From a virus: a DNA stretch of 28,010 nt. The stretch is from positions 1 through 28,010 of the IMG/VR virus record IMGVR_UViG_3300046680_000009; one strand, given 5' to 3'. The position numbers were made by a program, and so were the translations under genes. How positions within the stretch are numbered: position 1 is the first letter of the stretch; every line of letters starts with the position of its first letter. Under the pieces are notes generated by a model, which saw only the letters and a program-made list of their open reading frames with translations, was not told the DNA's origin and did not search any database. Positions 1-15,558 of the stretch are shown here, piece after piece.

Positions 1-68
1 CATACAAAACCATACTCGTCCTTGTAAGGAAAGACCATATCAGGGGAGTACCAGGTCTCCTTATCCAT
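1..68 (-). CDS. 5' end of an unrecognised protein, cut by the window edge
   Basis: An ATG on the minus strand (complement of 66-68) directly follows the stop codon of the HNH gene, with no spacer, and opens a frame that runs off the window. About 22 residues are visible, beginning MDKETWYSPDMVFPYKDEYG. A GGAG ribosome site lies 8 bases before the ATG, inside the last codons of the HNH gene, in the segment duplicated from the end of the kinase gene. This suggests the gene originally followed the polynucleotide kinase directly. The visible part is too short to assign a function. Confidence 0.6.
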   Translation of the reverse strand, partial: MDKETWYSPDMVFPYKDEYGFV

Positions 69-94
69 CTAGAAGTCTCCGTCTGCAACTTGCA
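67..94. repeat. Direct repeat copy A (3' end of HNH gene)
   Basis: This 28-base block matches positions 819-846 at 26 of 28 positions, including an uninterrupted 18-base run (CTCCGTCTGCAACTTGCA on the plus strand). It encodes the last residues of the HNH protein (LQVADGDF plus stop) and contains the ribosome site of the gene starting at 68. The two copies bracket the HNH gene. Confidence 0.9.
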
Positions 95-758
95 GTACAC
101 GAATTCCGTAATCTCCCAAGAACTTTATAGCCCAGTTCAATTTATCCTCCACTCGTTGTCCACTTGGTTGAGAGCGTGTCCAAAGCTCTAGATTTTCCAC
201 ACTATTATCGTCTTTAATACCATTTTTATGGTGAACATTTTCATGAGCTAAAAGAGGACGACCCAAGTGCTCGGACATTACAAACACATGTTCTAACATT
301 CCCCCGCTACTATTAGCGTTAGGATGATTGCCAATCATATGTTTAGGCAGATGAATATAGCCCTTCGGATCTTTGCGTGGCTTAGCCTCTCCTCTAGGAG
401 AAGCCAGTGCTATAGCAGGATCACCGTTTCTAAGTAATCTACCGTAATGAGTCTGACAATATATTTTTCTATGTATATACTTGTCACAACCATCAATAGA
501 ACAAGGACCTTCTGGTCTACGGTTAATCTTTTTTACGACTGTGGTATCACCATATTTCTTGAATCTTTCGTAATGCTTAGAGCAATAGCCTTTTACATAT
601 GAAATAATCTCACAGTCTTCCACAGAACATGGAAGCTTAGTCCGCTTTACAGGTGCTCCTAGAGGATCGCCATATCGTTGAACACGGTAGTAGTGCTTCT
701 GACAATACCCACGTACAGCACTAGGTATGCTACAACTATCTACAGAACAGTTTGTCAT
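69..758 (-). CDS. HNH homing-type endonuclease with three zinc-finger-like repeats
   Basis: This 229-residue protein is a mobile DNA endonuclease of the phage HNH_3 type. Three tandem Cys/His repeats fill residues 4-31, 44-71 and 86-113, each of the form CSxxxC...YCxxHYxRxxxxGD; they probably bind zinc and help recognise DNA. A linker with a GYIHL motif leads to the catalytic core at about 156-195: EH157, the HH pair at 176-177, N179, and the usual ENLELW end. Residues 202-218 (RVEDKLNWAIKFLGDYG) look like a normal end for this family. The remaining 11 residues, IRVLQVADGDF, instead match the C terminus of the adjacent polynucleotide kinase. The ribosome site is weak (AAAGGA), in an AT-rich spacer. 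HNH function is confident; the insertion history is inference. Confidence 0.92.
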   Translation of the reverse strand: MTNCSVDSCSIPSAVRGYCQKHYYRVQRYGDPLGAPVKRTKLPCSVEDCEIISYVKGYCSKHYERFKKYGDTTVVKKINRRPEGPCSIDGCDKYIHRKIYCQTHYGRLLRNGDPAIALASPRGEAKPRKDPKGYIHLPKHMIGNHPNANSSGGMLEHVFVMSEHLGRPLLAHENVHHKNGIKDDNSVENLELWTRSQPSGQRVEDKLNWAIKFLGDYGIRVLQVADGDF

Positions 759-820
759 ATCTTAATCCTTTAGTAATCTAGTTATTTACATAACAGTATA
801 CTAGACTACTTATAATAAAT
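759..820. other. AT-rich spacer upstream of the HNH gene
   Basis: This 62-base spacer has only 13 G or C bases (21%), much lower than the flanking genes. It carries TATTAT- and TATACT-like hexamers on the minus strand, but no convincing -35 partner, so a private promoter for the HNH gene is possible but not shown. Its composition fits DNA that arrived with the endonuclease gene. Confidence 0.5.
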
Positions 821-846
821 CTAGAATGCTCCGTCTGCAACTTGCA
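819..846. repeat. Direct repeat copy B (3' end of kinase gene)
   Basis: Partner of 67-94, with 26 of 28 bases identical. It encodes the end of the polynucleotide kinase (LQVADGAF plus stop). Just beyond the identical block the two copies still encode Ile-Arg-Val, but with different codons (ATA AGA GTT here, ATT CGT GTA in copy A). Confidence 0.9.
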
Positions 847-1726
847 AAACTCTTATTTGTAGCTTACGAAGACGACGTACAACACGGTCCCTGTCATCGA
901 ACCAGGCCAGGATATTGTACTTACCACGAATGTACTTGTCCACCATGTACTGCTTCACATCAGCATCGTTCCAGTCCTTCTGGTCTATACCATCGCGCAT
1001 GTAGAATTCCTGGAACCTGATGTGATGAATAGCATTCCATTCCTCAGTGTCCGCGCGGCAAGTATCAGGGCGACCAGACATTCCAAAATGCGGAGCCCAT
1101 GGCAGACCGTCCTCAATAACATCTTTAAGCAGAACGATATCTGCATGAGGTGCGTCAGTCAGGACACGAGTGTAGTCATATGGAGACCTTGCAACATGCT
1201 TGGCAGTGGTTCCGTCAGTGTCCCAGACAACACAGTAAGGTAGATCCGGATCAAACTCAAGAGGAGCTGACAGGACAACATCGTTCATCCACTCAGCAGT
1301 CAGCTTCCACTTATCAATTCGTGCAGCCATCTTACGGATAACCGTTTCACCAACAGAACGTTCTCCGTCAATTGCGCGGCTCCAGTCATTGGTGATGCAG
1401 TCCTCAGTAGTAATATGGCTGAAATCCTGGACCTTGAACAGTACTTCACCATCAAAGAGACGCTTGATGCGCTTAGGCATATTCTTCTCAATGTGAGTGT
1501 TGTCCACAATCACGTCCTTGCCCGCCTTTACAGCAGCAAGAATAGCCTTGTCCTGGATATCCAGTGCAATAGCCTCAGCATCCTTTGAGTAAGGAAGTCC
1601 AACCATTGCACGGATGTCATCCATGTTCACACGGACAATCTGACCATTGGACTCCTCTACCTGCTGCTTGGCCCAGGTACTCTTGCCACTAGCGGGCAGA
1701 CCGCGACAAAGTGTAATCGTAGTCAT
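821..1726 (-). CDS. pseT: T4 PseT-like polynucleotide 5'-kinase/3'-phosphatase
   Basis: The protein has 301 residues, the same length as T4 PseT. In T4 this enzyme phosphorylates 5'-OH ends and removes 3' and cyclic phosphates, preparing cleaved tRNA for ligation after host anticodon-nuclease attack. The kinase P-loop is GLPASGKST (9-17, K15 and S16), followed by D36 and R39 in MDDIR. The phosphatase domain shows the acyl-phosphatase DTDGT motif (169-173), SGRP at 217-220, D254 and K258, and WFDDR at 275-279, matching the family order and nearly the T4 numbering. The C terminus IRVLQVADGAF corresponds to T4 CWQVASGDF. A ribosome site (GGAAGGA) lies about 8 bases before the ATG. No RNA ligase gene is in this window. 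The last codons are duplicated at the end of the HNH gene. Confidence 0.95.
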   Translation of the reverse strand: MTTITLCRGLPASGKSTWAKQQVEESNGQIVRVNMDDIRAMVGLPYSKDAEAIALDIQDKAILAAVKAGKDVIVDNTHIEKNMPKRIKRLFDGEVLFKVQDFSHITTEDCITNDWSRAIDGERSVGETVIRKMAARIDKWKLTAEWMNDVVLSAPLEFDPDLPYCVVWDTDGTTAKHVARSPYDYTRVLTDAPHADIVLLKDVIEDGLPWAPHFGMSGRPDTCRADTEEWNAIHHIRFQEFYMRDGIDQKDWNDADVKQYMVDKYIRGKYNILAWFDDRDRVVRRLRKLQIRVLQVADGAF

Positions 1727-1939
1727 TTACTTATCCTTCCACTTGTAGTATCCTAGTACGTTTACACCAACGAAAAACGCACAGATAACAATGAACGGCC
1801 ACTGGTGCGTAAATATGGCATAGACAATCCATAAGACATTGTAGATAATACCTACTGTCAAACCCTGCCTACTCTTCCTTACAGCCAGCATGTAGTATCC
1901 AATGATACCTATAGCTGAAAGGATAGAACTGAATATCAC
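1727..1939 (-). CDS. Small membrane protein, PnuC/PQ-loop-like, three helices
   Basis: This 70-residue protein has about three hydrophobic segments: residues 2-19, a weaker one around 28-43, and 47-64. It has a basic RKSRQG turn and ends in KWKDK. Small phage proteins of this layout resemble a fragment of PnuC-type nicotinamide riboside transporters or of PQ-loop proteins; that is an impression from the pattern, not a proven relationship. It starts with GTG, overlaps the stop of the upstream 103-residue gene by 4 bases (GTGA), and is probably translationally coupled to it. Its stop codon abuts the start of the kinase gene. Confidence 0.75.
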   Translation of the reverse strand: MIFSSILSAIGIIGYYMLAVRKSRQGLTVGIIYNVLWIVYAIFTHQWPFIVICAFFVGVNVLGYYKWKDK

Positions 1940-2247
1940 TGCTCTGCCTTAACTATTCGATAGATGAAGTTGGGATGATACTTCTTGTAGAAATCTTCCT
2001 GGCCCTTAAGAATGCGGGAGTTGTATGCAGTCTCATTGCGCTTCCACACATTATCAGGATAGAGCCATTCCATGTAGTACCTGGTCTGGTCGCATACCTT
2101 GCTATGCTCAGTTGCTATCTCCAGCATCTTGGTCAGAGTAATGACCTCAGCATTTTCTGCAAAATCCGTTTCACAAACTGCACATGTGAAGGCCACCGGA
2201 TAGCTCATACCAGAATCGCTGGCTTCAAAGTTATCGAAGTTTCCCAT
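1936..2247 (-). CDS. Unrecognised 103-residue protein with a CxxC pair
   Basis: A strong ribosome site (AGGAGG, AGTC, then ATG) supports this gene. The protein has CAVC at about residues 22-25 and another cysteine near 52 (KVCDQTRYYMEWLYP), so metal binding is possible but not established. The rest is polar and aromatic with no signal peptide or membrane segment. I do not recognise the family. It is followed by the membrane protein gene with a 4-base overlap. The 75 bases before its start (2248-2322) show nothing beyond the ribosome site. Confidence 0.8.
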   Translation of the reverse strand: MGNFDNFEASDSGMSYPVAFTCAVCETDFAENAEVITLTKMLEIATEHSKVCDQTRYYMEWLYPDNVWKRNETAYNSRILKGQEDFYKKYHPNFIYRIVKAEQ

Positions 2248-2322
2248 GACTTCCTCCTAAGATGAGATCAAGAGGACAGAGGATGCTTCCCCCACCCTGT
2301 TGAACCAACCTTACACCTGCTG

Positions 2323-2577
2323 CTACAGGTTGTCCAGCGCTTCCATCATCTTCTCTCGCGCAGCATCGTACCCGGAATCATAGCCGCTCTCACGACCATC
2401 CTCAAACCCGATACTGTAGGAATCATCGCTCATACTAGAGGCAAAGTCATCCATAACCTCAGTAAGCTCCTCAATCATCACCTTAAGGTCATACGGAAGG
2501 AACACATCCCTGTCAAACATGGAACGATCCTCCAGAACCCGCAGTACCTTCAGAGCAGTAGCGAGACTGTCAGTCAT
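2323..2577 (-). CDS. Unrecognised small acidic protein (84 residues)
   Basis: A good ribosome site (TAAGGAG, then TTCTA) precedes the ATG. The protein is predicted helical and strongly acidic, with Asp/Glu-rich stretches (EELTEVMDDFASSMSDD) and a repeated GxESGYDSGYDAA pattern around residues 58-73. It overlaps the stop of the upstream 78-residue acidic gene by one base. Small acidic early proteins of this type often bind host proteins or act as DNA mimics; nothing here proves either role. Confidence 0.75.
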   Translation of the reverse strand: MTDSLATALKVLRVLEDRSMFDRDVFLPYDLKVMIEELTEVMDDFASSMSDDSYSIGFEDGRESGYDSGYDAAREKMMEALDNL

Positions 2578-2813
2578 TAGAACTCCTTAGTGTTACTGTA
2601 GTGGATCTCAGCATTGGACAATTCATCCTGGACGTCGTCCATAAGTCCTAGCAACTCAAAGAAGGCGTCATCCATCTCTTCCCACTTCTCCTTGAGAGAA
2701 TCGGGTACATCATAGTCGTCAATCACATGAAGGCCATAAACCAGCACCTCATAGAGTCCACCTTCCCACTCGATCTTGCCAAGCAGGTCATAAATGTTAT
2801 GTGATTCATCCAT
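2577..2813 (-). CDS. Unrecognised small acidic protein (78 residues)
   Basis: The frame is acidic and leucine-rich (DDAFFELLGLMDDVQDEL). Two ATG codons are possible, at 2819 and 2813. The ribosome site (TTTAGGG) touches the first ATG directly but sits 5-7 bases before the second, so the start at 2813 (MDESHNIYDLLGK) is preferred; the longer form adds only Met-Thr. It resembles the downstream acidic gene in composition, and the pair could be a diverged duplication, though no alignable motif is obvious. It lies just after the DnaC-like ATPase gene. Function unknown. Confidence 0.75.
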   Translation of the reverse strand: MDESHNIYDLLGKIEWEGGLYEVLVYGLHVIDDYDVPDSLKEKWEEMDDAFFELLGLMDDVQDELSNAEIHYSNTKEF

Positions 2814-2821
2814 AGTCATCC

Positions 2822-3502
2822 CTAAAGTCGTGTGTCCTTACCCAGAAGAGGGTAGGAGTCAAAGGCATCATGCTGGAAACTCTCGAAAGAGTCTCCGTAG
2901 ACCCCTCGCATTGACTCAGGGTCGATATTGGTAGTAATGATCGTGGGCAGAGCACTGTCATACCTTACACGGATAAGCTCATGAAAGAAGCTCTCGGTAA
3001 AACCTGACTGTGTACGGTACTCCTGACCTATATCATCGATAACCACAAGTGATCGTGTCCGTACCGCCTCAAGTACAGCATTGGCCTTTACCTTGCGTTC
3101 GCTTCCTTCACTGTCAAAGGTATTGGTCATTGCGGATTTAAGGTCGGAGAACCTTATGAAGTAAACCTTGAGAAAAGGGTGCTTACGCTGTACTTCCATA
3201 AGAGTAATAGCAGCAAGCGTAGTCTTACGGGTTCCATTGCGTCCGTAGAACAGCATGCCCTTACCAATATTGTCACGGCTTTCAGGAAAGTTACCGGAAT
3301 TCGCTCGTTCCTTTGAAACATAATGATCCATGAAATTGTCAGTAAAACTACGTGCGGCGGACAATGCCATCTTACGGGTTCCGTTAACCTTGTCAACAGG
3401 TACATCAGAATCATAATCCTGAAAGCTCATACCACGCAGCTTTATAGGGATATTCGCGCTTCCCCATCGGCTGACAAAATACTCCTCAGGCAGGGCTACC
3501 AT
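2822..3502 (-). CDS. DnaC/IstB-like AAA+ ATPase, probable helicase loader
   Basis: This 226-residue ATPase has the layout of phage DnaC-like helicase loaders, which place the replicative helicase on DNA. Relative to the ATG at 3502 it shows a Walker A region GRNGTRKT (87-94), Walker B LVVIDD (152-157), and sensor-1 TIITTNID (about 188-195). The C-terminal GKDTR resembles the usual GRDxR end. The Walker A is odd: the glycine expected before the lysine is arginine. The start at 3502 is chosen because GGGAGGAG stands 4 bases before it. A longer TTG-started frame to 3547 would overlap the upstream gene by 62 bases and has no good ribosome site. With the chosen start the overlap is 17 bases. No replicative helicase is in the window. 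Confidence 0.85.
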   Translation of the reverse strand: MVALPEEYFVSRWGSANIPIKLRGMSFQDYDSDVPVDKVNGTRKMALSAARSFTDNFMDHYVSKERANSGNFPESRDNIGKGMLFYGRNGTRKTTLAAITLMEVQRKHPFLKVYFIRFSDLKSAMTNTFDSEGSERKVKANAVLEAVRTRSLVVIDDIGQEYRTQSGFTESFFHELIRVRYDSALPTIITTNIDPESMRGVYGDSFESFQHDAFDSYPLLGKDTRL

Positions 3503-3869
3503 GCTTCTCCTCCCATTCGCGTTCCAATCTGTCCCACTTGTCTTCAACTACGACAGGCGCAAGCTTAGCACTGATCTGTTCTGCCCGATAGAGAAAATCC
3601 TGCCAACCAGGGTTCTTTCCTCTGAGTGATGCATCCTGCATGTACAGGTCCATCATCGACATCATGGTAGCAGAGTCCGTCTTGTCTTTCCAGTTGGTAA
3701 GAGACCCAGCCATAGCACGTACGTTGATTACTCCGAATCCTGACCATGCTGCTGCCTGGAATCTCTTACGGAAGTATTCTGCCAACTTCATTGAATTGAA
3801 AGATGACTTAGGGACGACTTCCTCTTCAGAGGTGTCATCCCATAAATCACCCCAAGCTCCTGGGGACAC
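3486..3869 (-). CDS. Unrecognised 127-residue protein upstream of the DnaC-like gene
   Basis: This starts with GTG (MSPGAWGDLWDD), with AAGGGGA about 8 bases upstream. The protein has an acidic N terminus, a central conserved-looking block (LAEYFRKRFQAAAWSG, about 29-44), and a charged C terminus with alternating Glu and Arg/Lys (DRLEREWEEKHG). Its position immediately before a DnaC-like ATPase, in an overlapping arrangement, suggests a replication role such as initiator or loader partner. That is inference from position only. I see no DNA-binding motif I can name. Confidence 0.75.
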   Translation of the reverse strand: MSPGAWGDLWDDTSEEEVVPKSSFNSMKLAEYFRKRFQAAAWSGFGVINVRAMAGSLTNWKDKTDSATMMSMMDLYMQDASLRGKNPGWQDFLYRAEQISAKLAPVVVEDKWDRLEREWEEKHGSPA

Positions 3870-3872
3870 TAT

Positions 3873-4124
3873 TCAGTTCCCCTTGTCGTGTGCTCTGCGG
3901 ATCTTCAACAGGACACCACTGGGCTCAGTATCTATGTACATATGGTAGAGGCCTCGGGTAACAAGCTGCCATGTCAATGACTTCTCTATGGCAGATGGAA
4001 CTGTCTCCTTGTAATCCATCTCAGCACACCACTTGGCATACTCAAAGTCATAGTAAAGCTGTCCACCGAACCAATCGGGAAAGTCATCAAGGAGAGACTC
4101 CCAAACCCACTTAGGCTTTGTCAT
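3873..4124 (-). CDS. Unrecognised 83-residue protein
   Basis: A good ribosome site (GGAG, then TCCGC) precedes the ATG, which overlaps the stop of the DUF3310 gene (ATGA). The sequence is rich in Trp, Tyr and Asp (PKWVWESLLDDFPDWFGG; YYDFEYAKWCAEMD) and ends basic. It appears to be a soluble, compact protein without a membrane segment. I do not recognise the family. Tight coupling to its neighbours places it in the same early operon. Confidence 0.75.
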   Translation of the reverse strand: MTKPKWVWESLLDDFPDWFGGQLYYDFEYAKWCAEMDYKETVPSAIEKSLTWQLVTRGLYHMYIDTEPSGVLLKIRRAHDKGN

Positions 4125-4513
4125 GCGGACTCCCTATTGATCAGGTACTCAATGTACCAAATAGCCTTCTTCAGATCCTCTACACCATTCTTGTCCCTGT
4201 ATCGGAGAAGATACTTCAATGCAGACCCCTCAAAGAAGTCCAGACCATTAGCTGTGATGACATCAATGGGCGAGATTCCCATCTTCTCATAGTGGTTTCC
4301 ACCAACCTGCTTAAGCGTATCCTTGGGTGCCAACTCCAGAATCCACCAGGAAATCTGAAAGCTTTCCGGGCTGAGAGTATCATGGCATTCAAGATTGTAC
4401 TTCTGATGCATATGAATGCCATCTATATCAACAGCTTCCACAACCCAAGGATGGTCAGATCCGTAGAAACTACTGGTAATAATATCTCCTGCAATAGGAA
4501 TAGCCTTAGACAT
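4121..4513 (-). CDS. DUF3310-domain protein (phage nucleotide-kinase-like family)
   Basis: The C-terminal part (about residues 69-126) is a clear DUF3310 domain: GGNHYEKM, SPIDVITANGLDFFEGSALKY, and LLRYRDKNGVEDLKKAIWYIEYL. The family is widespread in phages and includes relatives of T7 gp1.7, a nucleotide kinase, so a role in nucleotide metabolism is plausible but indirect. The N-terminal 65 residues (IPIAGDIITSSFYG...WVVEAVDIDGIHM) look like a separate small beta-rich domain. The ribosome site AAGGAG overlaps the end of the upstream gene by 8 bases. The domain call is confident; the enzymatic activity is not. Confidence 0.88.
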   Translation of the reverse strand: MSKAIPIAGDIITSSFYGSDHPWVVEAVDIDGIHMHQKYNLECHDTLSPESFQISWWILELAPKDTLKQVGGNHYEKMGISPIDVITANGLDFFEGSALKYLLRYRDKNGVEDLKKAIWYIEYLINRESA

Positions 4514-5447
4514 TTCGCTCCTTGATAAGTTCAGTCATAGTACGGATAGTACGAGAGAATGCTTCTCCCATTTGTGCAATGTTCTCGCCGAGTTCCACAA
4601 GAAGGACATCTGTCCGAGAATTGTCCCAAGGAGATACATTCTTGGCAACATCATCCCAGATTTCCTGAGTAGTAACAGGAACAAGCTCAGCCTTCTTTGC
4701 TGCCTGCTCCTCCACCTTCTTGGCCACGAATGCGTCAATACCTGAAACGCTCTGTACGGCTGTCTGAGGCTCTGAAACAGGCTCAGTGGGCTTGGGTGCC
4801 ACTGCCTTCTTCGCAGCCCTCTTACGGGCCACTGGAGCCTTCTTAGGGGCTACTCCTGACTCTACTGCCAGAGCTTCCTGTTCGGCCTTGAACTCTTCCT
4901 GCTTACGCTCACGGTCAGCCTTGTCCTCAGCAGACTCGTATCCTTCAAAGACGTCCACCATACCGTTGAGGTTCAGCGTCAGGATTTCGGAATGGGACTT
5001 GGCCTCATACAGGATCTCCAGATCGGACAGGGACGACTCACCCTGAGTATAGGTACTCTCAGGATCAAAGAACATCAGGAAGACAGTCTCATCTCCCTCT
5101 GCCGCACGGTCCTTGAGGAGCTTGAAGCCAGTGCTGAGTGCAAGGTGCTCATCCTCAACCTTGATGATGTCGGGAAGGGCAGCAAGATCCCTGTTCATGG
5201 GAGCATCCTTGACCTGGATGACCTGAACATCTGCATCGGTAGCAATGGCATACTTGGTCATAAGATTCAGAGCAGGACCAGACCGGCCAAGGATAGGAAA
5301 GATAACCTTCACCTCTCGGATGCCAACAGCGTCAGGGTCACCCTTCTTTCCGAAAACCCAGTCGTCAAGGTTCTCCTTCAGATTGGCCGCAGAAGTCTTA
5401 CCAGTACCGGCAACCATGATCGTCAGGTCACGAGTGAAGTCACGCAA
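4506..5447 (-). CDS. Unrecognised 313-residue protein with Lys/Ala/Pro-rich linker
   Basis: The start is taken as the TTG at 5447 because AAGGAGG lies 5-6 bases before it; another TTG at 5462 is less well placed. Residues 1-165 look like an alpha/beta fold (VKVIFPILGRSGPALNLMT, DETVFLMFFDP). An acidic/charged helix (174-193) is followed by a histone-H1-like linker rich in Lys, Ala and Pro (about 199-226), then a helical C terminus. The GTGKTS near residue 14 is not a full Walker A motif because the leading glycine spacing is wrong. I do not recognise the family. The basic linker could bind nucleic acid; that is speculative. A perfect stem-loop stands just upstream. Confidence 0.82.
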   Translation of the reverse strand: MRDFTRDLTIMVAGTGKTSAANLKENLDDWVFGKKGDPDAVGIREVKVIFPILGRSGPALNLMTKYAIATDADVQVIQVKDAPMNRDLAALPDIIKVEDEHLALSTGFKLLKDRAAEGDETVFLMFFDPESTYTQGESSLSDLEILYEAKSHSEILTLNLNGMVDVFEGYESAEDKADRERKQEEFKAEQEALAVESGVAPKKAPVARKRAAKKAVAPKPTEPVSEPQTAVQSVSGIDAFVAKKVEEQAAKKAELVPVTTQEIWDDVAKNVSPWDNSRTDVLLVELGENIAQMGEAFSRTIRTMTELIKERNV

Positions 5448-5466
5448 AATTTCCTCCTTCAATAGG

Positions 5467-5510
5467 AAAGCTCCTGTGAGCTTGGATTAACCATAGTTCA
5501 CAGGAGCTTT
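5467..5510 (-). terminator. Perfect 13-bp stem-loop between two early genes
   Basis: AAAGCTCCTGTGA (5467-5479) and its exact complement (5498-5510) form a 13-bp stem with an 18-base loop. It starts 5 bases after the stop of the upstream membrane protein gene and ends 20 bases before the TTG of the next gene. On the minus-strand transcript the stem ends in CUUU followed by CCUAUU, only moderately U-rich. It may be a weak terminator or attenuator, or an RNA-processing or stability element. The stem also holds an AGGAG sequence that would be hidden when folded. Confidence 0.55.
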
Positions 5511-5514
5511 AGAG

Positions 5515-5775
5515 TCAAGGAAGAGGCGGGATGTTAGACTGTCGTCTCACTCGCTTCTCCGCAGCTCTAGGCACTGCCTTGTGTACCGTGGTGTCGATGA
5601 GAAGGACTATTCCACAGACAGCAGAGACTGTCAAGTACTGATGAGGAACGAAAGTGAGGCCGTAGGCTAAGCCAGGTAGTAGGATAAAGTGAATCAACCA
5701 GTCGGGTAGGTTGATGTGTGTCTTCAGGTATGTCCAGAGATAGACTAAGCTCAGTGCCATTAGTAGTAGGTTCAT
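5515..5775 (-). CDS. Small membrane protein (86 residues)
   Basis: Two or three hydrophobic segments are visible (about residues 2-16, 25-42 and 47-62), followed by a strongly basic tail (HKAVPRAAEKRVRRQ) and a proline-rich end. This suggests an inner-membrane protein with a cytoplasmic positive tail. It is the first gene after the control region and is separated from the structural operon by a terminator. The ribosome site is poor (GGTAGG). A small membrane protein here could be holin-like or superinfection-related, but no lysin gene is adjacent and I do not assign a role. Confidence 0.65.
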   Translation of the reverse strand: MNLLLMALSLVYLWTYLKTHINLPDWLIHFILLPGLAYGLTFVPHQYLTVSAVCGIVLLIDTTVHKAVPRAAEKRVRRQSNIPPLP

Positions 5776-5874
5776 GTCAGTAGCCTACCAGAGGTTGCTG
5801 TACTTGACACTGACAAGAAAAGTTTGGTAGTCTCTGGTATGTCGAAGCACTACCCCATAAAAGCATATAAAGAT
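5776..5874 (-). promoter_or_regulatory. Probable control region of the early operon
   Basis: This is the only sizeable gap between the structural and early blocks. It holds a near-perfect 15-base dyad (CTTGACACTGACAAG, 5803-5817; 12 of 15 positions symmetric) and a second pair of inverted arms, TACCAGAG (5786-5793) and CTCTGGTA (5832-5839), around nearly the same centre. On the minus strand, GTGTCA, 17 bases, then TGGTAGGCT makes an extended -10 promoter candidate just before the 86-residue gene. On the plus strand TTGACA (5804-5809) is followed after 18 bases by a weak TAGTCT. The promoter calls are tentative. Confidence 0.4.
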
Positions 5875-5918
5875 AAAAGAGTTATAATCCTTATTTATTA
5901 AAGGACTATAACTCTTTT
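5875..5918 (-). terminator. Rho-independent terminator of the structural operon
   Basis: An 18-bp stem (arms 5875-5892 and 5901-5918, one G-U pair on the minus-strand RNA) encloses an 8-base loop and is flanked by A and U runs. On the minus strand the stem ends in UUUU followed by AUCUUUAUAU. It begins 16 bases after the stop of the last tail gene, so it should end the late transcript. On the plus strand the same element ends in CUUUUUC, so it may work in both directions. Confidence 0.85.
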
Positions 5919-5934
5919 TCTATTAGACAATAAC

Positions 5935-8367
5935 TTAACTAACTGGTTGAGCAAACTTAAGAGTATAAGTTTCTCCAACAGGAAGAACAGAAGGTAAAGC
6001 TACATTCAATCTGTTAAGTTTATTAGTGTAGTTACTGTAATAGTAAGATCTACTGTTATTAACTACTCCACCAGATTCCCACTGGTAATCAGAAGTAGAG
6101 AATCCACCATCAAAGAAGGAATTTACATTCTGACTTTCTTCTACAAGAATTGAATCAACCCAGAAAGTAAAGACAGGTTGAAGAATATAGTTCCCATACA
6201 TTACATAGAAGTAGAAACTGTAGTCCTGTACTCCACCTGGTGGAACAGTATAGGTGGTTGAAATTCTGGTCCAACCATTGACTGTGTTGGTAGCTTTAAC
6301 AGCATTGGTACTCAGTGCATTTACACCAGTGAAATTAGAGTCGTAGAAGTTCATCATTACATCTGGACAACCAAGACTCTGCTTTACATAGGCAGAGATA
6401 GTATATGTATGTCCTATCTTCAATCCTTGTACTACTGGGACACTTGCTCCACCAGTAAAGCTTCCTGGAGTAGAAGTTCCTAATTGTCCTGTGGTGGTAT
6501 TACCTGAGAATGAACCTGAAGGAGCTACAAAGTTTACCTTCATGGAACCAAGGGAATTGAATCCAGTAGTTCCATCCCATGACATTGTTACTGGATTAGG
6601 AGTACCTGACGTATTTACATTCGTCTGGCTCCAACCAGTTGTGTTGGTATTGAAACCAGCGTTCATCACATAGTTGACCCTGTCAGCATTTACCACAATA
6701 TCAGCATTACGGGGATTGGAATATGCTGGTGTCACTTGTCCAGCTATAAAGGTATTAGTTCCTACAATATAGTGATTGTCCATATGGACAGTTTCTATAA
6801 GACTTCCTGAATTTATAACGACAGGAACTACTGCCATCCATACAGAATTAGTAGGTGCTGGTACACCGGCGGTATTTATAATACCTGTCTGCCAAGTTCC
6901 ACCACCAGGATGCACGTTCATATTGGAAATGGTTGCGCTGGCAATAGTATTACTGGCTCCTGCTGTAAGGATATTGAAGTTGGCGTCATAGTACAGAATT
7001 GTCGCAAACCAGTTTGTGTTGGCTCTTACCGCATACAGAGATACAGAAGCATACAGGCTTTCATAGGTAGCATTCTGTAGTAGCACTGATGCCATTCCCG
7101 CCTTTTGCGGTAGCGGGTAGTAAGCCAGCTGTCCTGTTCCTATTGTTGTAGGAGAGGCTGTGCTGATGACCTTCCCCGAATAAGCTCCTGTCAGAGTTAT
7201 GTCCGAACTTCTGAAAGTCGTAAGAACTCCTGGTCCGGAACCATAACAGCACTGATTTACATACAGGGAAGCGTCTAGGGACAGACGGTTGCTTATTCCT
7301 ACCAATGAATTGGGAGACAACTGCACGCTGCTGAGGAAATTCGTACCTGTCTGCGGAATTGCATGGCTGTTGGCATCAATAGAAGCGTACTCAGCAGGCT
7401 GCCAGTAAGAACCATCACGGTACTGTGTAGGAGCACTGAGGGTTGCCAGTGAACGAACCCACTTGTTCTGTGTGAAGGTCGCTCCATTGCTGCTTGTAGC
7501 AGAATTGAATATAGGAGCGAAGTAACCGTTGAATCGTGCGGAGTCCAGGTTACCTGCTCCAGTGGTGCTTCCCTGGCTAAAGGCAAAGTCTGTTACTCCA
7601 CCCTCAGGTAGTCCCAGAGAGACGTTGAAGTTTGCACGAAGCCCTGAGATGCCGTTTACAGAGGCTTTCAGCGCGTTGGGAGAAGATAGTACTGCCAGAC
7701 CGTGTGCGGCTGCTGAAGCCCCTGTTGTGGCCGATAGAGCCAGTGTTGTGCCCGGCAGGTTGATGTGGGAAACCAGTGCTAGGTTTCCTGGACTCTCAAT
7801 ACCTGTGAATCCTGCAAAGATAGAGACAACCACAGAGGATGTATCCCACAGATAGGAAACACTTCCTAACTCTGTCCAGGTGCTTCCGTCAGGAGATACA
7901 TCGAAATGAAACAGCACAGAGTCATTGCGAATTCTCCAGTAGGCATGGGCAGTAGGATTATAGGCAGGCATATTGGAAGCAATATTTACTACGGAACTAT
8001 TGTTTACACCATAGGCACTGAAGTTACCTTGTGGACCCACGGACATGGTTACATAGTTATTGTTGTTGTCCTTGACAATAAGAGCTGTCTGGGTCCCGCC
8101 GTTTCCAGAAGGAGCAGGAACTATCTTGGCGAAGAAGGAGTCATTGGTTATGTCGTAAAGGGCAGCACCAAGGTAACTGGGAGTAGATGTAGCCTCAATG
8201 TACGGAAGGTTAGTAAGTACATCTATCCCAAAATTTCCACTAGTGGTATTCCACTGGGGATTAAGTAGCTCAGTACCACCACCATAACTGCCGCTTCCAT
8301 ATCCGAAAGCTCCATAGCCATCGGGTAGAAAGAAGTCAATGAGAGTACTGGTTTTTGGGTTTGCCAT
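5935..8367 (-). CDS. Lectin-like minor tail protein (distal tail/fibre)
   Basis: This 810-residue protein is the last gene of the tail operon. A Gly/Tyr-rich start (DGYGAFGYGSGSYGGG, 16-31) precedes a concanavalin-like beta-sandwich at about 35-205 (AYWRIRND, FHFDVSPDGSTWTELG). Later regions, roughly 565-770, carry carbohydrate-binding-module-like repeats (NAGFNTNTTGWSQTN, GHTYTISAYVKQS, GWTRISTTYTVP). The C-terminal FDGGFSTSDYQWESG motif is common at the end of actinophage minor tail proteins. It probably binds cell-surface glycans. The ribosome site GGAG lies inside the upstream gene; the start codon abuts that gene's stop. Virion role is confident, ligand unknown. Confidence 0.82.
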   Translation of the reverse strand: MANPKTSTLIDFFLPDGYGAFGYGSGSYGGGTELLNPQWNTTSGNFGIDVLTNLPYIEATSTPSYLGAALYDITNDSFFAKIVPAPSGNGGTQTALIVKDNNNNYVTMSVGPQGNFSAYGVNNSSVVNIASNMPAYNPTAHAYWRIRNDSVLFHFDVSPDGSTWTELGSVSYLWDTSSVVVSIFAGFTGIESPGNLALVSHINLPGTTLALSATTGASAAAHGLAVLSSPNALKASVNGISGLRANFNVSLGLPEGGVTDFAFSQGSTTGAGNLDSARFNGYFAPIFNSATSSNGATFTQNKWVRSLATLSAPTQYRDGSYWQPAEYASIDANSHAIPQTGTNFLSSVQLSPNSLVGISNRLSLDASLYVNQCCYGSGPGVLTTFRSSDITLTGAYSGKVISTASPTTIGTGQLAYYPLPQKAGMASVLLQNATYESLYASVSLYAVRANTNWFATILYYDANFNILTAGASNTIASATISNMNVHPGGGTWQTGIINTAGVPAPTNSVWMAVVPVVINSGSLIETVHMDNHYIVGTNTFIAGQVTPAYSNPRNADIVVNADRVNYVMNAGFNTNTTGWSQTNVNTSGTPNPVTMSWDGTTGFNSLGSMKVNFVAPSGSFSGNTTTGQLGTSTPGSFTGGASVPVVQGLKIGHTYTISAYVKQSLGCPDVMMNFYDSNFTGVNALSTNAVKATNTVNGWTRISTTYTVPPGGVQDYSFYFYVMYGNYILQPVFTFWVDSILVEESQNVNSFFDGGFSTSDYQWESGGVVNNSRSYYYSNYTNKLNRLNVALPSVLPVGETYTLKFAQPVS

Positions 8368-10704
8368 TTACACTGCTCCAGACGCTGAGTACTTGTGAAT
8401 AATTCCGAATTGCGGAGTACCACTCAAAGGATTGCTTATGTCTACCAGTTGTACCAGGGTTCCCTTACTGTCTCGGGCATACTTGGATACGATTATATCC
8501 GTAGTTGTAATATCTACGACTATACGATCTCCGTCAACAAGTCTGGTCCAGTTGGTCACAAGACTTTCCACACCAGCAGCTACCTGGTAAAGACTCTTTC
8601 TCGTTACGTAGAAGAAATTGCTGGCATTTACATATCCGAATATAATACCGTGAGCCTTATGAGTAGTGTCGTTGTAGTCCGTAGCAAAGGTAAGAGCTAG
8701 TCTTGCTTGTGCCAGACCAATAGGCTGAAGGATATATTCATACGTAGTGGTGCCTGCGATAGTAGGATCTACGAATGCCATTCCATGATTTGACTTCCAC
8801 AATCCTGCTGTTGAAGGTGTAGCTGTCCAAGCTGATGATGGAAGTGTTATGTCAGTGGTTCCATTCAGATCCGTATAGTCAGTAATAAATCTGGCCAGAC
8901 TACCCGTGTACACAGTAGTTGTCGGATATTGAATAGCTATATTTGTCAGGTTGGTTCCATCACTGGCGTAGAAGTTTGCGTTTACCGCATACTGTAGGGC
9001 ACCTGTTCCTGTTGCAATACTACCGAAGTATGCGCTGGCAGTATAAACAAACTCAGAAGGCTGTACATACACCCAGTTGAGATTGGAGTAGTAGTTACCC
9101 GTTGGCTGGTAGTTAGTATTCGGATTAGTAGCAAGGTAGATAATTCCGAAGAACTGAACCTTGTCTCCTACTGCATACTGAGTGACTTTGTCCCAAGGCT
9201 GTACCTGAGGAATAGGCACACCGTCTTTTACAGTATTAGGACGATCAGTAGTAACGAAATAGAAAGCCTTCCACACCTGGTTGTTAGTCCCTGGTGTCAC
9301 TACTGTAGTAGAAGGACCATTAGGAGCAAGTGCTACGTAGTAATATCCGTCTGCTCCAAGTACATAATTATTTATTACATAGTTAGCGGCATTGGAATAA
9401 TTAGGTGTATTGATAGGAGAAATACTGTAGATATCAACAAACCCAGCGTTGAGATTAGTGGTCTGATTAAATGCTAGAGCATTCCAGTTGTGGATAGTAG
9501 TATCCGTAGGGTGGGGTAAACCTGCTACTACACCAGTAAGGGTAGCTGCGGCTCCATTAGGAACAGCCTGCCATGTGGAGTAGAAAGAAGTCTCAGGATT
9601 TAGCAGGGTAGTTGTGTCAAGAACCTGTAGCTGAACCTGCCACCATGTATTGCTTGTTCCCAGTCCTGTAGGAGCCTGAGCGGTACCAGCAGACTGTACA
9701 AGGTTCTTGTAGTTGTATCCGCTGTACTGGATAAGCTGGTTGGGGAAGTAGGTAGTATTCGCACTCCAGCTATCATAATTTGGATGCACGAATGCGGACT
9801 GGTCCCCAGTATTCAGCAGATTTGTATTATAGGTAGACGTAGAATCCCAACCGGCTAGGTCGGCAATAAGATTGTGTAGACTCTGAGCCTCACCCTTAAG
9901 CTGATAGTTCACAGTAGCATTCTTGATACGTTGTCTGCGCTGCTGAGGTGTGGACATGTAATCAGTATTGATACCTAGTTGCTGGCCCAGAATATCCAAG
10001 GATGTAGCAGAAACTCTGTCCGCATTATTAGAGTTCAGATAAAGGTCATAGCTGTTCTTTAGTGTACTGAGTCCGAATCCGAATACATTCAGATAGTTCT
10101 GTAGAGAAGGATTGTCTACAGTAGTGTTTCCGAAAGTGTCAGAGGAAGTAATCTTGTACGGCTGAGGAGTTCTGTTGTACAGCAGGGAACCATATCCAGA
10201 ATTACCAAGGGAAAGAGTTGCTGCATATCCTGCTGGATACCATGTAGGTATATATGTTGAAGGACTCCAGAAGGAACTACCAGCAGCAGGAGTATTACCT
10301 GTATTGACAGTTGTAAGACTGCTCCAGTACACACCGTTGTACAGTACCTGCTGATTGGTTACATAGCCTGTTCCCACATTCCATGTAGGTGCCTCAATAG
10401 TGATGAACATGGTGTAGTAGTAGATCGTACCTGTAGTAAGACCTGTATCATCATAGGATCTCACCATAGTCCCAGGAACGATTTCCTGTAGTAGCACACC
10501 ATCATTTGCAGTAGAGGGATACCCATAAGTACTACGAACTAGGTGAAGAAACTTCCAGGTGGTTGTATTAGGAGACTGCCACTGCAACTTGATTTCGTTG
10601 TAGTTGGACTGTGAAGCTGTAAAAGGAGTTACACTGTAATCCGCAGGCTGTGAATATCCGTAGAAGTCCTGCCCATAGATATCGACTCCATAGCCTTTGC
10701 TCAT
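8368..10704 (-). CDS. gpI-type tail protein with CBM5/12-like modules
   Basis: The core at about residues 170-285 matches the P2 gpI / tail-protein-I family: LLYNRTPQPYK, VSATSLDILGQQLGI, RQRIKNATVNYQLKGEAQSL. In P2 and relatives this protein links the baseplate wedge to the fibres. Added domains are: a Gly/Tyr-rich start; a fibronectin-III-like domain (about 21-103); four chitin-binding-like modules of the Trp...Y..(G/N)..V.Y.G..Y...N.G..P.....W type at about 108-146, 311-355, 435-479 and 503-545; and a C-terminal beta-sandwich of lectin type (about 660-778). Ribosome site AAGGAG is well spaced. The modules suggest binding to GlcNAc-containing polymers; this is inference. Confidence 0.85.
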   Translation of the reverse strand: MSKGYGVDIYGQDFYGYSQPADYSVTPFTASQSNYNEIKLQWQSPNTTTWKFLHLVRSTYGYPSTANDGVLLQEIVPGTMVRSYDDTGLTTGTIYYYTMFITIEAPTWNVGTGYVTNQQVLYNGVYWSSLTTVNTGNTPAAGSSFWSPSTYIPTWYPAGYAATLSLGNSGYGSLLYNRTPQPYKITSSDTFGNTTVDNPSLQNYLNVFGFGLSTLKNSYDLYLNSNNADRVSATSLDILGQQLGINTDYMSTPQQRRQRIKNATVNYQLKGEAQSLHNLIADLAGWDSTSTYNTNLLNTGDQSAFVHPNYDSWSANTTYFPNQLIQYSGYNYKNLVQSAGTAQAPTGLGTSNTWWQVQLQVLDTTTLLNPETSFYSTWQAVPNGAAATLTGVVAGLPHPTDTTIHNWNALAFNQTTNLNAGFVDIYSISPINTPNYSNAANYVINNYVLGADGYYYVALAPNGPSTTVVTPGTNNQVWKAFYFVTTDRPNTVKDGVPIPQVQPWDKVTQYAVGDKVQFFGIIYLATNPNTNYQPTGNYYSNLNWVYVQPSEFVYTASAYFGSIATGTGALQYAVNANFYASDGTNLTNIAIQYPTTTVYTGSLARFITDYTDLNGTTDITLPSSAWTATPSTAGLWKSNHGMAFVDPTIAGTTTYEYILQPIGLAQARLALTFATDYNDTTHKAHGIIFGYVNASNFFYVTRKSLYQVAAGVESLVTNWTRLVDGDRIVVDITTTDIIVSKYARDSKGTLVQLVDISNPLSGTPQFGIIHKYSASGAV

Positions 10705-10713
10705 GTGTGCTCC

Positions 10714-11418
10714 TTATATATTGTTCAGTGGAGATGTACCAGCGTGGAAAGCTGTAGTAGGTGGATCTCTGTGGTAGGTAACAGCCATCATAGCTGTGGC
10801 AGTAATACCTGTTGTCAGTACATTCTGTACAGCTATCATTTCAATAGTAGTACCTTGAGTCCAAGGCAGTGTAATAGAAGCTGACTGGTGATTAGATCTC
10901 TGCCATCCCTGAGGGAAGTATCTAAGATCGTCTACGTATTCATATGTTCCACCAGCGGGTAGCGCTCTTATACCTAACCCACCTGCTCTGTTAAACGGTG
11001 TCTGCTGACTGTCGGCTGGTTGATTGTCTGCGTGCCATCTTATATAGATGTCAAAAGTATATACACCTGATCGTGTACAGGTAAGAGTTGGTCCACCACC
11101 CCACATATTATGGGTGTCCCAAGTCTTACTGGTCCACTGGATAGGGACAGAGGTATTGTATCCCACGACAATATTGTTGGCCCAGACATTGGCGTAAGGC
11201 TTTGACTTCCCTTGTCTTACAGACGTTATTCTTGAAGATACAGTAGGCCAGGAAGCAAGCTGCCCATCGATAGTGTCCGTATTAGGAAGAACACCTAGTA
11301 TATTCTGAGTAGCTGATATCTCATCATACGCCACATTTACGTCAGCAGCTTCTACTAGTTCTGTATAGTCCACACGGTTAGAGAACTTCTTTACTGCGTT
11401 AGGATAGATTGCTACCAT
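10714..11418 (-). CDS. C1q-like fibre/minor tail protein
   Basis: This 234-residue protein has an N-terminal segment typical of phage tail proteins (VDYTELVEAADVNVAYDEI, about 17-35), often a trimeric helical region that attaches to the tail. Residues about 78-225 look like a C1q/TNF-type jelly roll (IQWTSKTWDTHNMWGG, TCTRSGVYTFDIYIRW, GTTIEMIAVQN). Such domains form trimeric knobs that contact host surfaces. It lies between baseplate J and the gpI-type protein, where adhesin components are expected. Ribosome site AAGGAG, then TAACC. The fold is inferred from pattern only. Confidence 0.75.
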   Translation of the reverse strand: MVAIYPNAVKKFSNRVDYTELVEAADVNVAYDEISATQNILGVLPNTDTIDGQLASWPTVSSRITSVRQGKSKPYANVWANNIVVGYNTSVPIQWTSKTWDTHNMWGGGPTLTCTRSGVYTFDIYIRWHADNQPADSQQTPFNRAGGLGIRALPAGGTYEYVDDLRYFPQGWQRSNHQSASITLPWTQGTTIEMIAVQNVLTTGITATAMMAVTYHRDPPTTAFHAGTSPLNNI

Positions 11419-11427
11419 GGTTACTCC

Positions 11428-12954
11428 TTATGGTGTAGCAGTTACGGATACAACAATATTACCAACAGTGGGTAGCTCGAAACTTCTCATAAGGATATCC
11501 GCAGCACCTGACTGAACAGCATCTGATCGTACAAAGAGAGGAATATTTACATACTGCACACCTGGAATATTGTACAGTGCTGAATAAGCAGAGCTAAGGG
11601 AGACTCTCCCTCCAAGAACTACATTACTAGGTGCGAATAGATTCTGTATAGCCTGAGTAGCTGCTATCTGAATAGACGCAGGATTATATCTAGAACTACA
11701 TCCTATCGTTATTGGAGTGCTGTTGGCTCCCACATTAATAGGTACGAGAGTAGCGGAGTTTACAGTAACAGTAGTACCAGCAAGTGCATTGGCCTGTAGG
11801 AATGTTGTTGTCTGGTTTATAACAGACTGCGTTGGTAGCACGTTACCGACACCAGTTATGTACACTGTGATATTAGTGTAAGTATTTGCTACCGCATTAG
11901 CCTGAGAAACAGTCGCAAGACTCATAGCAAGATTGCCGTAGTCCGCAAGGGTTACGGCTCTTTGCTGTGTAGTGAAGGACTTAGGAGCGTTGACTCTGAT
12001 CTGGTCTATGCTCTCGGCTGCTGTGCCACCTGTTGTACTTGTGGAGCTTATGATATTGACACCAAGAATAGGAGAAGCAATATCAATAATGGAATTAGAA
12101 GTAAGGTTGCCTATAGTTCCACCACCTACACGATAGTTAGCATATACCTGTAGACCTGCGGCAGGAATAGAACCATTGATATTATCGCCGAAGTTGACTG
12201 TAACAATTCCCTTGGCATCTACTGTCTCTGCCCATGCCAGATCATTGGACTTGGAGGACTGTAGTGAATTGACCTGGTTCCAGGCAAGAATAGGATCTAC
12301 GTTGGTTACCCCAGGGAAGTTAGGGTTCTGAACGTATACAGTTACCGACCCGCTGACTACAGGATTATTTGCCAGAGCAAAAGTCTGCAACTGGGAGCCA
12401 TCAGAGGTTCCAAGTAGTTCTGTAGTGATAGCGAAAGGAGATGCAGTACTATTTCCTATGGTGAATACAGCTTTTCCCTGTGTTACTCCCTGCACAACCG
12501 GCACAGCCACAGTCCCACCGTTTGCAGGAACCGTAGCTGCCTGAGTAGTCTCAAAAACGATAGGACCATTGAGACTACTGATGTAGTCAGTTGTTACCTG
12601 GGTAGCCAGTGGAATGGGAACTGCTGCTGAAGTAGTAGCAGTCTGAAAGGTAACTGTTCCTGTAGCTGCTTGAGGTTGCCCTGGTGTATATCCGAGAAGC
12701 TGTGCCAGTAGAAGAACAGAGGACAACTGAGTAGCTGTGCCTATATATGCTTCCCCTAGAATACGGTCACCATAGTAGGACAGTACGTCTAGTTCTCTGG
12801 ACAGGGATTCCAGGAGCATGACTTCTAGGCTTCCCGGATTCTGGTTGGTCCATTCTGGGAAAGCTGTTGTAGCGAATGTCAGCATGGACTGTAAGAAACC
12901 TGTGTAGTCCTTACTGGTGTAGTCGATAGCGGGAACACCATTAACCGTTGCCAT
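11428..12954 (-). CDS. Baseplate J-like protein (gpJ/gp6 family)
   Basis: This 508-residue protein belongs to the baseplate J family (P2 gpJ, T4 gp6), which forms the wedge ring that surrounds the central hub and triggers sheath contraction. The N terminus is diagnostic: DYTSKDYTGFLQSML, PGSLEVMLLESLSRELDVLSYY, ATQLSSVLLLAQLLGY. The middle is an inserted beta-rich domain (TVTFQTATTSAAVPIPL, VQGVTQGKAVF). The conserved end segment follows (AAESIDQIRVNAPKSF, QRAVTLADYGNLAM, TVTVNSATLVPINVGA). Ribosome site AAGGAG lies before the ATG. Its neighbours, gp25-like and gpI-like, match the usual baseplate order. Confidence 0.95.
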   Translation of the reverse strand: MATVNGVPAIDYTSKDYTGFLQSMLTFATTAFPEWTNQNPGSLEVMLLESLSRELDVLSYYGDRILGEAYIGTATQLSSVLLLAQLLGYTPGQPQAATGTVTFQTATTSAAVPIPLATQVTTDYISSLNGPIVFETTQAATVPANGGTVAVPVVQGVTQGKAVFTIGNSTASPFAITTELLGTSDGSQLQTFALANNPVVSGSVTVYVQNPNFPGVTNVDPILAWNQVNSLQSSKSNDLAWAETVDAKGIVTVNFGDNINGSIPAAGLQVYANYRVGGGTIGNLTSNSIIDIASPILGVNIISSTSTTGGTAAESIDQIRVNAPKSFTTQQRAVTLADYGNLAMSLATVSQANAVANTYTNITVYITGVGNVLPTQSVINQTTTFLQANALAGTTVTVNSATLVPINVGANSTPITIGCSSRYNPASIQIAATQAIQNLFAPSNVVLGGRVSLSSAYSALYNIPGVQYVNIPLFVRSDAVQSGAADILMRSFELPTVGNIVVSVTATP

Positions 12955-12969
12955 TAATATCTCTTCTCC

Positions 12970-13389: not shown

Positions 13390-13403
13390 ATTATTATCCC
13401 ATA

Positions 13404-15276: not shown

Positions 15277-15550
15277 TAGGCACTCTGATCTGTGTACCAG
15301 CAGGCACACTGTCCCAGAACAGGATCTCAGGATTCACGTTAGCTATTCTCCACCACTGGGTCTCATCACCATATGCAGAGAAAGAAAGGTAGTCTATCTG
15401 GTCACCATCACTCCACACATGCACTGCGATGTTGTATGTCAGTGGCTGCGTGGGAGGAGTAATAATTATAGTAGGTCTGGAAACATTATTTCTATCAGCA
15501 ATAGGAATAACAGTATTGTCTGCATAACGACTGAACACACTGATTGTCAT
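15269..15550 (-). CDS. LysM-like baseplate protein (gpX/gp53-like)
   Basis: In this 93-residue protein the second half has a LysM-type pattern common in baseplate and hub proteins: VWSDGDQIDYLSFSAYGDETQWWRIANVNPEI, ending in PAGTQIRVP. Proteins of this kind (P2 gpX, T4 gp53) bind the hub or peptidoglycan. The N-terminal SRYADNTVIPIADRNNV is a short strand-rich arm. Ribosome site GGAG, then TAACT. The neighbours (tube initiator before, gpD-like hub after) fit a role at the tube-baseplate joint. Confidence 0.85.
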   Translation of the reverse strand: MTISVFSRYADNTVIPIADRNNVSRPTIIITPPTQPLTYNIAVHVWSDGDQIDYLSFSAYGDETQWWRIANVNPEILFWDSVPAGTQIRVPNA

Positions 15551-15558
15551 AGTTACTC

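Follow-up and report, generated by a model that had tools for sequence, protein, structure and literature searches.

The window analysed here is the complete IMG/VR virus record IMGVR_UViG_3300046680_000009, of 28,010 bases. Close to its position 1, an HNH endonuclease gene follows a PseT-like polynucleotide kinase gene, and both end in the same peptide. We suggest that the endonuclease gene very probably belongs to a free-standing HNH_3 homing element, placed at the last codons (the tail) of the kinase gene and carrying a rescue tail for that gene. Comparison of filled and empty alleles establishes that the element is present or absent at one site, that filled alleles have two tails, which of these is native, and that the arrangement recurs at other targets.

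A kinase locus with two tails

The features of the locus are listed below, where L006 is a related viral contig without the HNH gene.

821..1726, minus strand: PseT-like polynucleotide kinase/3'-phosphatase gene, the invaded gene (Pfam HAD_PNKP and AAA_33; phrog_505 polynucleotide kinase; alignment to T4 polynucleotide kinase, 1ltq)
821..860, minus strand: replacement (respelled) kinase tail of the element, ..QIRVLQVADGAF stop; 7 of 36 nucleotides (nt) differ from the empty allele L006 across the IRVLQVADG.F-stop codons, and the preceding 100 nt are identical
759..820, minus strand: spacer of 62 nt upstream of the HNH gene, with 21% G+C (sequence and composition)
69..758, minus strand: HNH_3 endonuclease gene of 229 amino acids (aa) with three N-terminal CxxxxC..CxxH repeats (PF13392, E 6.7e-8; HNH endonuclease phrogs; family alignment A1)
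168..290, minus strand: HNH_3 motif, residues 157-197 of the endonuclease (PF13392 match; invariant columns of alignment A1)
69..106, minus strand: original kinase tail, now the in-frame end of the HNH gene, ..IRVLQVADGDF stop; matches L006 from GAATTCG through the stop to the contig end
107..860, minus strand: inserted cassette, i.e. replacement tail, spacer and HNH gene minus the original tail, in the place of 2 bases (GC) of the empty site (window/L006 alignment)
1..68, minus strand: start of the next gene, MDKETW..., truncated by the contig end at position 1 (complete 77-aa open reading frame (ORF) at L006 4907-5140)

The HNH (69-758) and kinase (821-1726) ORFs, both on the minus strand and both ending in IRVLQVADGxF, are as described in the original prediction, which was made from the letters of the window. 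In gene orientation, the kinase finishes with CTA CAA ATA AGA GTT TTG CAA GTT GCA GAC GGA GCA TTC TAG and the HNH gene with GGA ATT CGT GTA CTG CAA GTT GCA GAC GGA GAC TTC TAG. The shared protein end has 11 residues with one mismatch and is preceded by Q in the kinase and by G in the HNH protein; since the two proteins are otherwise unrelated, such a likeness is not to be expected by chance. A repeat finder gives a direct repeat of 39 nt with 82% identity (67-105 / 819-857). Its first 28 bases (67-94 / 819-846) contain two adjacent mismatches, in agreement with the 26 of 28 identities previously noted. The Ile, Arg and Val codons were correctly said to be all changed with the residues kept, and the same is true of the following Leu codon.

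The tail had been assigned to the kinase family, and the alignments bear this out. The HAD_PNKP domain of the window kinase (301 aa) extends to its final residue, and T4 polynucleotide kinase (1ltq) aligns through its own final residue, ending in WQVASGDF, so the shared tail is a property of the kinase/phosphatase family and not of HNH proteins. The same tail on HNH homologues far from any kinase gene, which would speak against the original prediction, was not seen: VADG or QVA.G within the last 30 residues occurs in 0 of 243 other HNH proteins from the fetched loci.

The HNH protein passes the curated PF13392 score (32.5 vs 24.8 bits). Its conserved HNH fold stops near Tyr217 and the family is variable beyond that point (alignment A1), so a borrowed C-terminal end is probably tolerated. 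The three CxxxxC..CxxH repeats lie within residues 1-115, their number differs among relatives (alignment A1), and they are probably zinc-binding DNA-recognition modules. An AAAGGA in the 62-nt spacer, recognised by eye, is the likely ribosome-binding site of the HNH gene; RNA folding of this spacer is no better than that of shuffled sequences (z = -0.91). A group I intron or an intein was rejected as an explanation, given that a stop closes the kinase frame upstream of the HNH gene and that the latter has a separate start. No Rfam family reached its gathering score in positions 1-3000 of the window.

The empty site

Used as a query against viral contigs, the kinase gave two loci, L006 and L007, the latter stopping before the kinase end. 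L006 is on contig IMGVR_UViG_3300047319_000185 (112,630 bases) and its kinase is 94% identical across all 301 residues. This kinase ends RKLRIRVLQVADGDF-TAG and is followed at once by the MDKETW gene, with no HNH gene in between: in DNA, ..CGTAAGCTGCGAATTCGTGTACTGCAAGTTGCAGACGGAGACTTCTAG runs directly into ATGGATAAGG, the start of the 77-aa gene. This is the empty site that the original prediction had proposed to look for, with IRVLQVADGDF leading straight into MDKETW.

Both flanks of the insertion in the window are identical to L006, over 100 nt before the junction (960-861) and 106 nt after it (106-1), while 754 nt of the window (860-107) replace two bases of L006. The native tail of L006 is matched by the HNH end at 36 of 36 nt and by the kinase's own end at 29 of 36. 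Together, the tails and the identical flanks demonstrate, as far as an alignment can, that a 754-nt cassette composed of a replacement kinase tail, a spacer and the HNH gene entered the kinase 3' end. The comparison upholds both the proposal that the HNH copy (GDF) is ancestral and the kinase copy (GAF) the replacement, and the proposal that the endonuclease inserted there with a recoded tail and became fused in frame to the original one. The kinase of the window is not split, having the same full length of 301 aa as in L006, which is at variance with gene-splitting insertions of the mobE/nrdA type.

A simple insertion that duplicated the target tail, with later synonymous drift of the upstream copy and no rescue tail brought in, would also leave a direct repeat flanking the HNH gene and a largely kept peptide. 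However, the changes in the window are confined to the tail, with 7 in its 36 nt and none in either the 100 nt preceding the junction or the 106 nt beyond it. Together with the filled alleles described below, this leaves duplication followed by drift as a very improbable account that the alignments have already largely refuted.

Cultured phages agree with L006. The related kinases of BRock, GiJojo, Alone3 and pSt2308 (cultured Streptomyces phages), none with an HNH gene directly after, end VLQVA[DP]G[DE]F; the closest kinase among phage records is that of BRock (53%). A kinase ending in GAF in the absence of the HNH gene, a further observation that would contradict the original prediction, was not found among the five readable related kinases (L001-L004 and L006, all lacking an HNH gene directly after), of which four end in GDF and one in GEF. 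BRock and GiJojo have HNH genes elsewhere.

The L006 contig has a single weak HNH match elsewhere (E 1.7e-5, 32 residues). This stretch (L058 1501-1596) resembles one of the Cys/His repeats of the HNH protein (44%) and lies within an open frame of 287 codons. Over the rest of the kinase, the window and L006 differ mostly by 2-8 mismatches per 60 nt, in contrast to the 100% identity beside the insertion (861-960 and 1-106), which might reflect either a tract of co-conversion or strong constraint on the target. The window also shows large gaps relative to L006 at ~1950-2290 and ~3190-3490, with otherwise high identity, and small genes have probably been swapped at these two breaks of collinearity.

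The same anatomy at six other targets

Filled and empty alleles were found at six further targets: a helicase, a primase/polymerase, a metallophosphoesterase, a major tail protein and two genes of unknown function. All six show the same three features: a replacement tail on the upstream gene, the native tail as the end of the HNH gene, and a native stop that still touches or overlaps the start of the gene after it. Polymorphism for presence at one site, with matching flanks, was seen for the window and L006, for the phages Roman and PhillyPhilly, and at five further targets. The HNH proteins of Roman, BRock, L016, L089, L283 and L060 exceed the curated PF13392 score as well.

In the cultured Microbacterium phage Roman, the primase/polymerase ends GGG GCC TGG GAG GCC CTG TGA and the HNH gene ends TGG GAG GCA GTA TGA. 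PhillyPhilly and Pavlo, without an HNH gene there, end GGA GCA TGG GAG GCA GTA TGA and have the same DNA over the 60 nt compared beyond. Roman and PhillyPhilly, both recorded on the laboratory host Microbacterium foliorum NRRL B-24224 SEA, are identical at 147 of 150 nt upstream and 150 of 150 downstream of the element, and at 15 of 15 nt of the HNH tail (99% over 595 nt); near-identity on both sides is hard to reconcile with drift of a duplicated tail. TGG GAG GCA GTA TGA is also the end in Wolfstar (87%) and Hortus1 (76%), which are more distant. In Jacko, another more distant relative, the end is WEAVE (GAG GCA GTT GAG TGA) and not WEAV.

In the cultured Streptomyces phage BRock, the HNH gene gp100 ends GAC TAC CTT GAG TGA with an 8-nt overlap onto the next gene. 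The helicases of Alone3 and GiJojo end GAC TAC CTT GAC TGA and likewise overlap a homologous gene by 8 nt, and the BRock helicase itself ends GAC TAT CTG GAA AAC AAG GTA TAA. The phosphoesterase of L016 has CNVDGKFFYA as its own tail and YVDGKRFSA on the HNH gene. Of its empty counterparts, with no HNH gene after, L140 (82%) ends YVDGRRFSA and L141 and L142 end Y[LI]D[AG]KRFTA. In L089 the own tail is INTMKLLGRMEHSSSQTGYRT and the HNH tail INTMKLLGRIEGSMGHGVR; the empty L151 and L152 end INTLKLLG[KR][IV]E[GA][SG]MSGVR and L153 ends INTLKLLGRVERSMSDFR, the next gene overlapping the stop as ATGA.

The target in L283, L284, L298 and L287 is phrog_11667, of unknown function, with L105, L090 and L099 as empty partners of L283, L298 and L287. 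The own tail of L283 is ACA ATA AGA ACC GTC TGA and its HNH tail is ACC ATT AGG ACG GTC TAA TG, exactly that of the empty L105 (18/18; the comparison reaches 24 nt past the stop). L090 (ACG ATT CGG ACG GTC TAA TG) and L099 (ACT ATA AGG ACG GTC TAA TG) likewise continue into the next gene. The major tail protein of L059 and L060 has GCA GTG GTG AGG GCA ACA AGC TAA as its own tail, and the HNH tail of L060 is GCC GTG ACG AGG GCG ACG AGC TGA TGGCC. Empty alleles of this gene were sought in 392 Streptomyces genomes (the genus of G003); 19 matched and 15 were read at >=60% identity. Fourteen of the 15 (69-87%) end TGATG into the next gene, while L345 (63%) ends TAA; L332-L344 and L351 serve as the empty partners.

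Counting nucleotides that match the empty allele, the native tail on the HNH gene is ahead of the gene's own tail by 36 to 29 of 36 in the window, 15 to 12 of 15 in Roman, 18 to 13 of 18 in L283, 26 to 20 of 30 in L016 and 11 to 9 of 12 in BRock. The native stop meets the next start at 7 of 7 targets, as TAG-ATG in the window and as ATGA, TAATG, TGATG or the 8-nt overlap elsewhere. This is suggestive of a design that preserves the junction, and only suggestive because this kind of junction is frequent, as at 14 of the 35 neighbouring pairs of one stretch of BRock.

Two other explanations bear on these alleles. An assembly chimera near the end of a metagenome contig could be suspected in the window, where the HNH gene is 68 nt from the contig end; yet the cultured and sequenced BRock and Roman have the same anatomy, and two of the elements were each found in more than one contig (L059/L060; L283/L284/L287/L298), which makes an artefact highly improbable. 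The shared tail might also have been captured for its use to the HNH protein, for instance by stabilising it or by guiding the nuclease to kinase complexes, and the in-frame fusion in 7 of 7 cases would fit such a role. Against it, the tails come from seven unrelated proteins, no common property being seen, and are all attached where the conserved HNH fold ends (~Y217), in a region that otherwise varies within the family, so that we find this explanation unlikely.

Ownership, spelling and source of the replacement tail

The replacement tail appears to travel with the element, since it stays constant where native tails or gene bodies differ. L059 and L060 have one and the same own tail, with identical DNA after it, and differ by several bases in the native tails on their HNH genes; ATAAGAACCGTCTGATGGGAGC is common to L283, L298 and L287, although the L298 protein is 88% and the L287 part 90% identical to that of L283. 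That independent filled alleles share a replacement tail in this way is another observation at odds with duplication and drift.

Over six cases, 22 of the 28 codons that differ between own and HNH tail keep the residue or stop. For L089 and BRock, whose ends diverge, the count stops after 11 and 4 codons, respectively, and L060 is left aside; the corresponding p = 4e-9 presumes that 25% of changes are synonymous by chance, a rough null. We consider it about equally likely that the respelling was selected or that it was brought in with the tail of a diverged homologue.

In the latter case the tail would come from another phage, as in the model for fungal mitochondria: the rescue would be real and the spelling ordinary, unselected divergence, a possibility that we place a little short of even. 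The C-termini of the Glomus and Allomyces mitochondrial elements are thought to be horizontally acquired, according to PMC3630166. The new tail of the window has 41% G+C, like the HNH gene, while the kinase has 49% and the native tail 51%, a weak hint from few bases. The replacement tails of L089 and BRock differ in protein as well, and single replacement features occur in empty alleles, namely GTG GTG AGG (the Val-Val step of L059/L060) in L336 and the ATA of the L283 tail in L099. On the other hand, the changed codons of the window cluster at the junction, with 4 of the first 4 codons and only 1 of the next 7. The whole L059/L060 replacement string is present in 0 of the 15 relatives read. 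No donor was found for the window tail, blastn of the last 100 nt of the kinase against phage records giving only spurious matches of 26-27 nt; positions 1-20000 of the window have no near match in the same records. Tails of 36 nt are too short for a tree.

Screen of HNH tails against upstream genes

The ends of HNH relatives were compared with the ends of the preceding genes, the window itself being excluded, and scores of at least 20 were retained. The first set joined 31 of the 50 loci of one search (without near-duplicates, N-terminal-only and odd matches) with all 80 of another; after the loss of 2 loci without a stop and 3 without an upstream ORF, 106 remained, of which 7 reached the threshold vs 0.47 by random pairing. 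For the second set 75 new loci were read, and those with ends matching earlier ones were removed; 4 of the remaining 55 reached it vs 0.475 expected. Some of the screened loci are near-copies (e.g. L059/L060 and L283/L287) and hence are not independent events.

Other neighbouring gene pairs served as a further control, with 142 HNH pairs drawn from 139 loci with distinct HNH ends. Tandem paralogues, repeated tail genes among them, contaminated the first version of this control, and 38 paralogous background pairs were then dropped. With paralogues removed, 10 of 142 HNH pairs reached the threshold vs 9 of 1078 background pairs (Fisher p = 1.2e-5), and one of these nine is itself an HNH pair (L298). 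The body-similarity limit used for paralogues would drop none of the top-scoring HNH pairs listed.

Several candidates were not counted. For L043 (MINAG/QINAG), the search found only its own contig and no empty site. L133, L066, L281, L299/L304 and L251 have short tail matches without confirmed empty alleles.

Proposed mechanism and evidence weighing against it

We propose that, during co-infection, the HNH enzyme would cut the native tail of empty alleles and that repair would copy the cassette from a filled allele into the break. Catalysis by the HNH protein is predicted from its HNH_3 motif. The respelled tail would keep the invaded gene whole, such a rescue being presumably needed. It might in addition prevent the cut site from forming again at the left junction, and shorten a direct repeat through which the element could be deleted. 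At the right junction, the in-frame fusion would carry translation to the native stop beside the next gene. In the window, the original kinase tail and stop are kept as the HNH end, the ATG of the MDKETW gene lies directly 3' of the native TAG, and GGAG falls within the native tail; the next gene's ATG and ribosome-binding region thus stay put, and its junction is left untouched.

A number of results weigh against a homing element with a rescue tail, or against its generality. The replacement tail is not always a faithful copy, as that of L089 diverges after 11 codons and that of BRock adds three residues. In L089, the native and own tails match the empty allele almost equally well (22 vs 21 of 33 nt over 11 codons), and the case depends on residues past these codons. 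When solved structures were searched with a profile of the HNH family, the one match was a ribosomal protein at E 0.8. In the screen, the excess over background is not significant without paralogue removal (10/142 vs 41/1124, p = 0.067), and HNH loci of bacterial genomes show no excess (1 of 78 at score >=20 vs 0.3 expected). Sixteen further regions of isolates were fetched and 15 read, MulchMansion being left out as its neighbours are on the other strand; 13 of the 15 have no clear tail copy and Roman is positive. GAL1 gp71 has a shared VSS ending and was not counted as a positive, and GiJojo gp115 has no clear copy of the primase tail. Many of these loci may be intergenic insertions or may share too few codons for detection.

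L030 is a misfit, where the rescue-tail rule seems to fail or to be obscured. The last codons of its upstream gene are those of the empty L146 (AAG TGG AGA GCT TAA) while its HNH tail differs (GAG TGG CGA GCA TGA); with a native-like own tail and a foreign HNH tail, this locus was not counted. At L030 3974-4516, the HNH end EEEWRA is equally similar to the phosphoesterase ends of L148 (GEWKA) and of the empty L146, the nearer relative, and a cross-lineage transfer of this tail is possible.

Taking all this together, we still hold the homing element with a rescue tail to be very probable at the loci described. With less confidence, but slightly in favour, we see in them a widespread natural class of phage home-and-rescue elements, in which a free-standing HNH gene that targets the junction between a gene end and the next start combines a respelled tail, selected for resistance to the element's own enzyme, with a borrowed C-terminus and leaves both neighbours working.

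Neighbouring genes in related loci

After the phosphoesterase, L140 (3283-4071) has a frame whose start overlaps the phosphoesterase stop, and similar frames are found in L016 and L141-L143; the product looks like a free-standing intein/Hint-like protein (MIHNTLVWTKRGW...GDKIISY...; PF14890 E 0.0097, below the cut-off). In GiJojo, the HNH gene gp115 (L002 10786-11211) lies between primase and helicase, with a 19-nt overlap, in a different frame, between its end and the start of the helicase gene. The primase and helicase genes of BRock and Alone3 directly overlap each other. An HNH relative in the Streptomyces phage MulchMansion (L323 1711-2082) is on the opposite strand to its neighbours and directly adjoins a phage tmRNA gene. 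Just before the empty major-tail-protein gene of L343, near the locus end, there is a C-terminal part of an HNH gene (1982-2080; 70% over 33 residues of that of L060), and the same HNH family may use this neighbouring junction too.

Relation to known systems and significance

The closest precedent comes from fungal mitochondria. Mobile endonuclease ORFs with an inserted C-terminus are reported for atp6, atp9, cox2 and nad3 of Glomus, atp6 of Allomyces, atp9 of Rhizopus and cox2 of Mortierella (PMC3630166). As in the present elements, an endonuclease ORF and a substitute C-terminus stand at the 3' end of a gene, the downstream native C-terminus matches close relatives, and the inserted one is diverged in DNA and similar in protein (same source). 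In the phage loci too, the downstream native C-terminus is nearer to the relatives than the gene's current one, weakly so in L089. The phage elements differ from the mitochondrial ones in having a separate HNH_3 gene, its in-frame fusion to the native tail and the conserved junction with the downstream start.

Among phages, the Mob proteins of T4 type are likewise encoded by free-standing HNH genes, some of them within genes (PMC2988022). There, free-standing enzymes are described as cutting hundreds or thousands of bp away, and mobE in Aeh1 nrdA and mobA in T4 gene 60 as splitting the host gene into two polypeptides, unlike the elements reported here; a substitute tail is not mentioned in the portion of that review consulted. 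Neither is one mentioned in the available part of a survey of nuclease genes at exchange boundaries (PMC10448857). We found no phage precedent for a rescue-tail element in the open-access literature, which largely leaves out subscription papers. An engineered parallel is the HomeR drive, in which an essential gene carries a cutter together with a re-coded version of its own 3' end (PMC7968924); HomeR uses Cas9 in flies, whereas the present elements are natural, of phages, and encode an HNH protein.

Selfish endonuclease genes lodged in important genes must spare their host. Group I introns and inteins with homing endonucleases invade conserved coding sites without killing the gene by means of RNA or protein splicing. 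The elements described here solve the same problem by simply resupplying the lost 3' end, and a recoded gene end would be a third and simpler solution, present in phages at at least seven different genes. An HNH tail equal to the tail of the upstream gene offers a signature for homing sites. It is also a warning for annotation, as the C-termini of both the HNH protein and the host gene are chimeric at such loci. Finally, these natural examples could show how stable a gene-drive-like design with a re-coded 3' rescue is.
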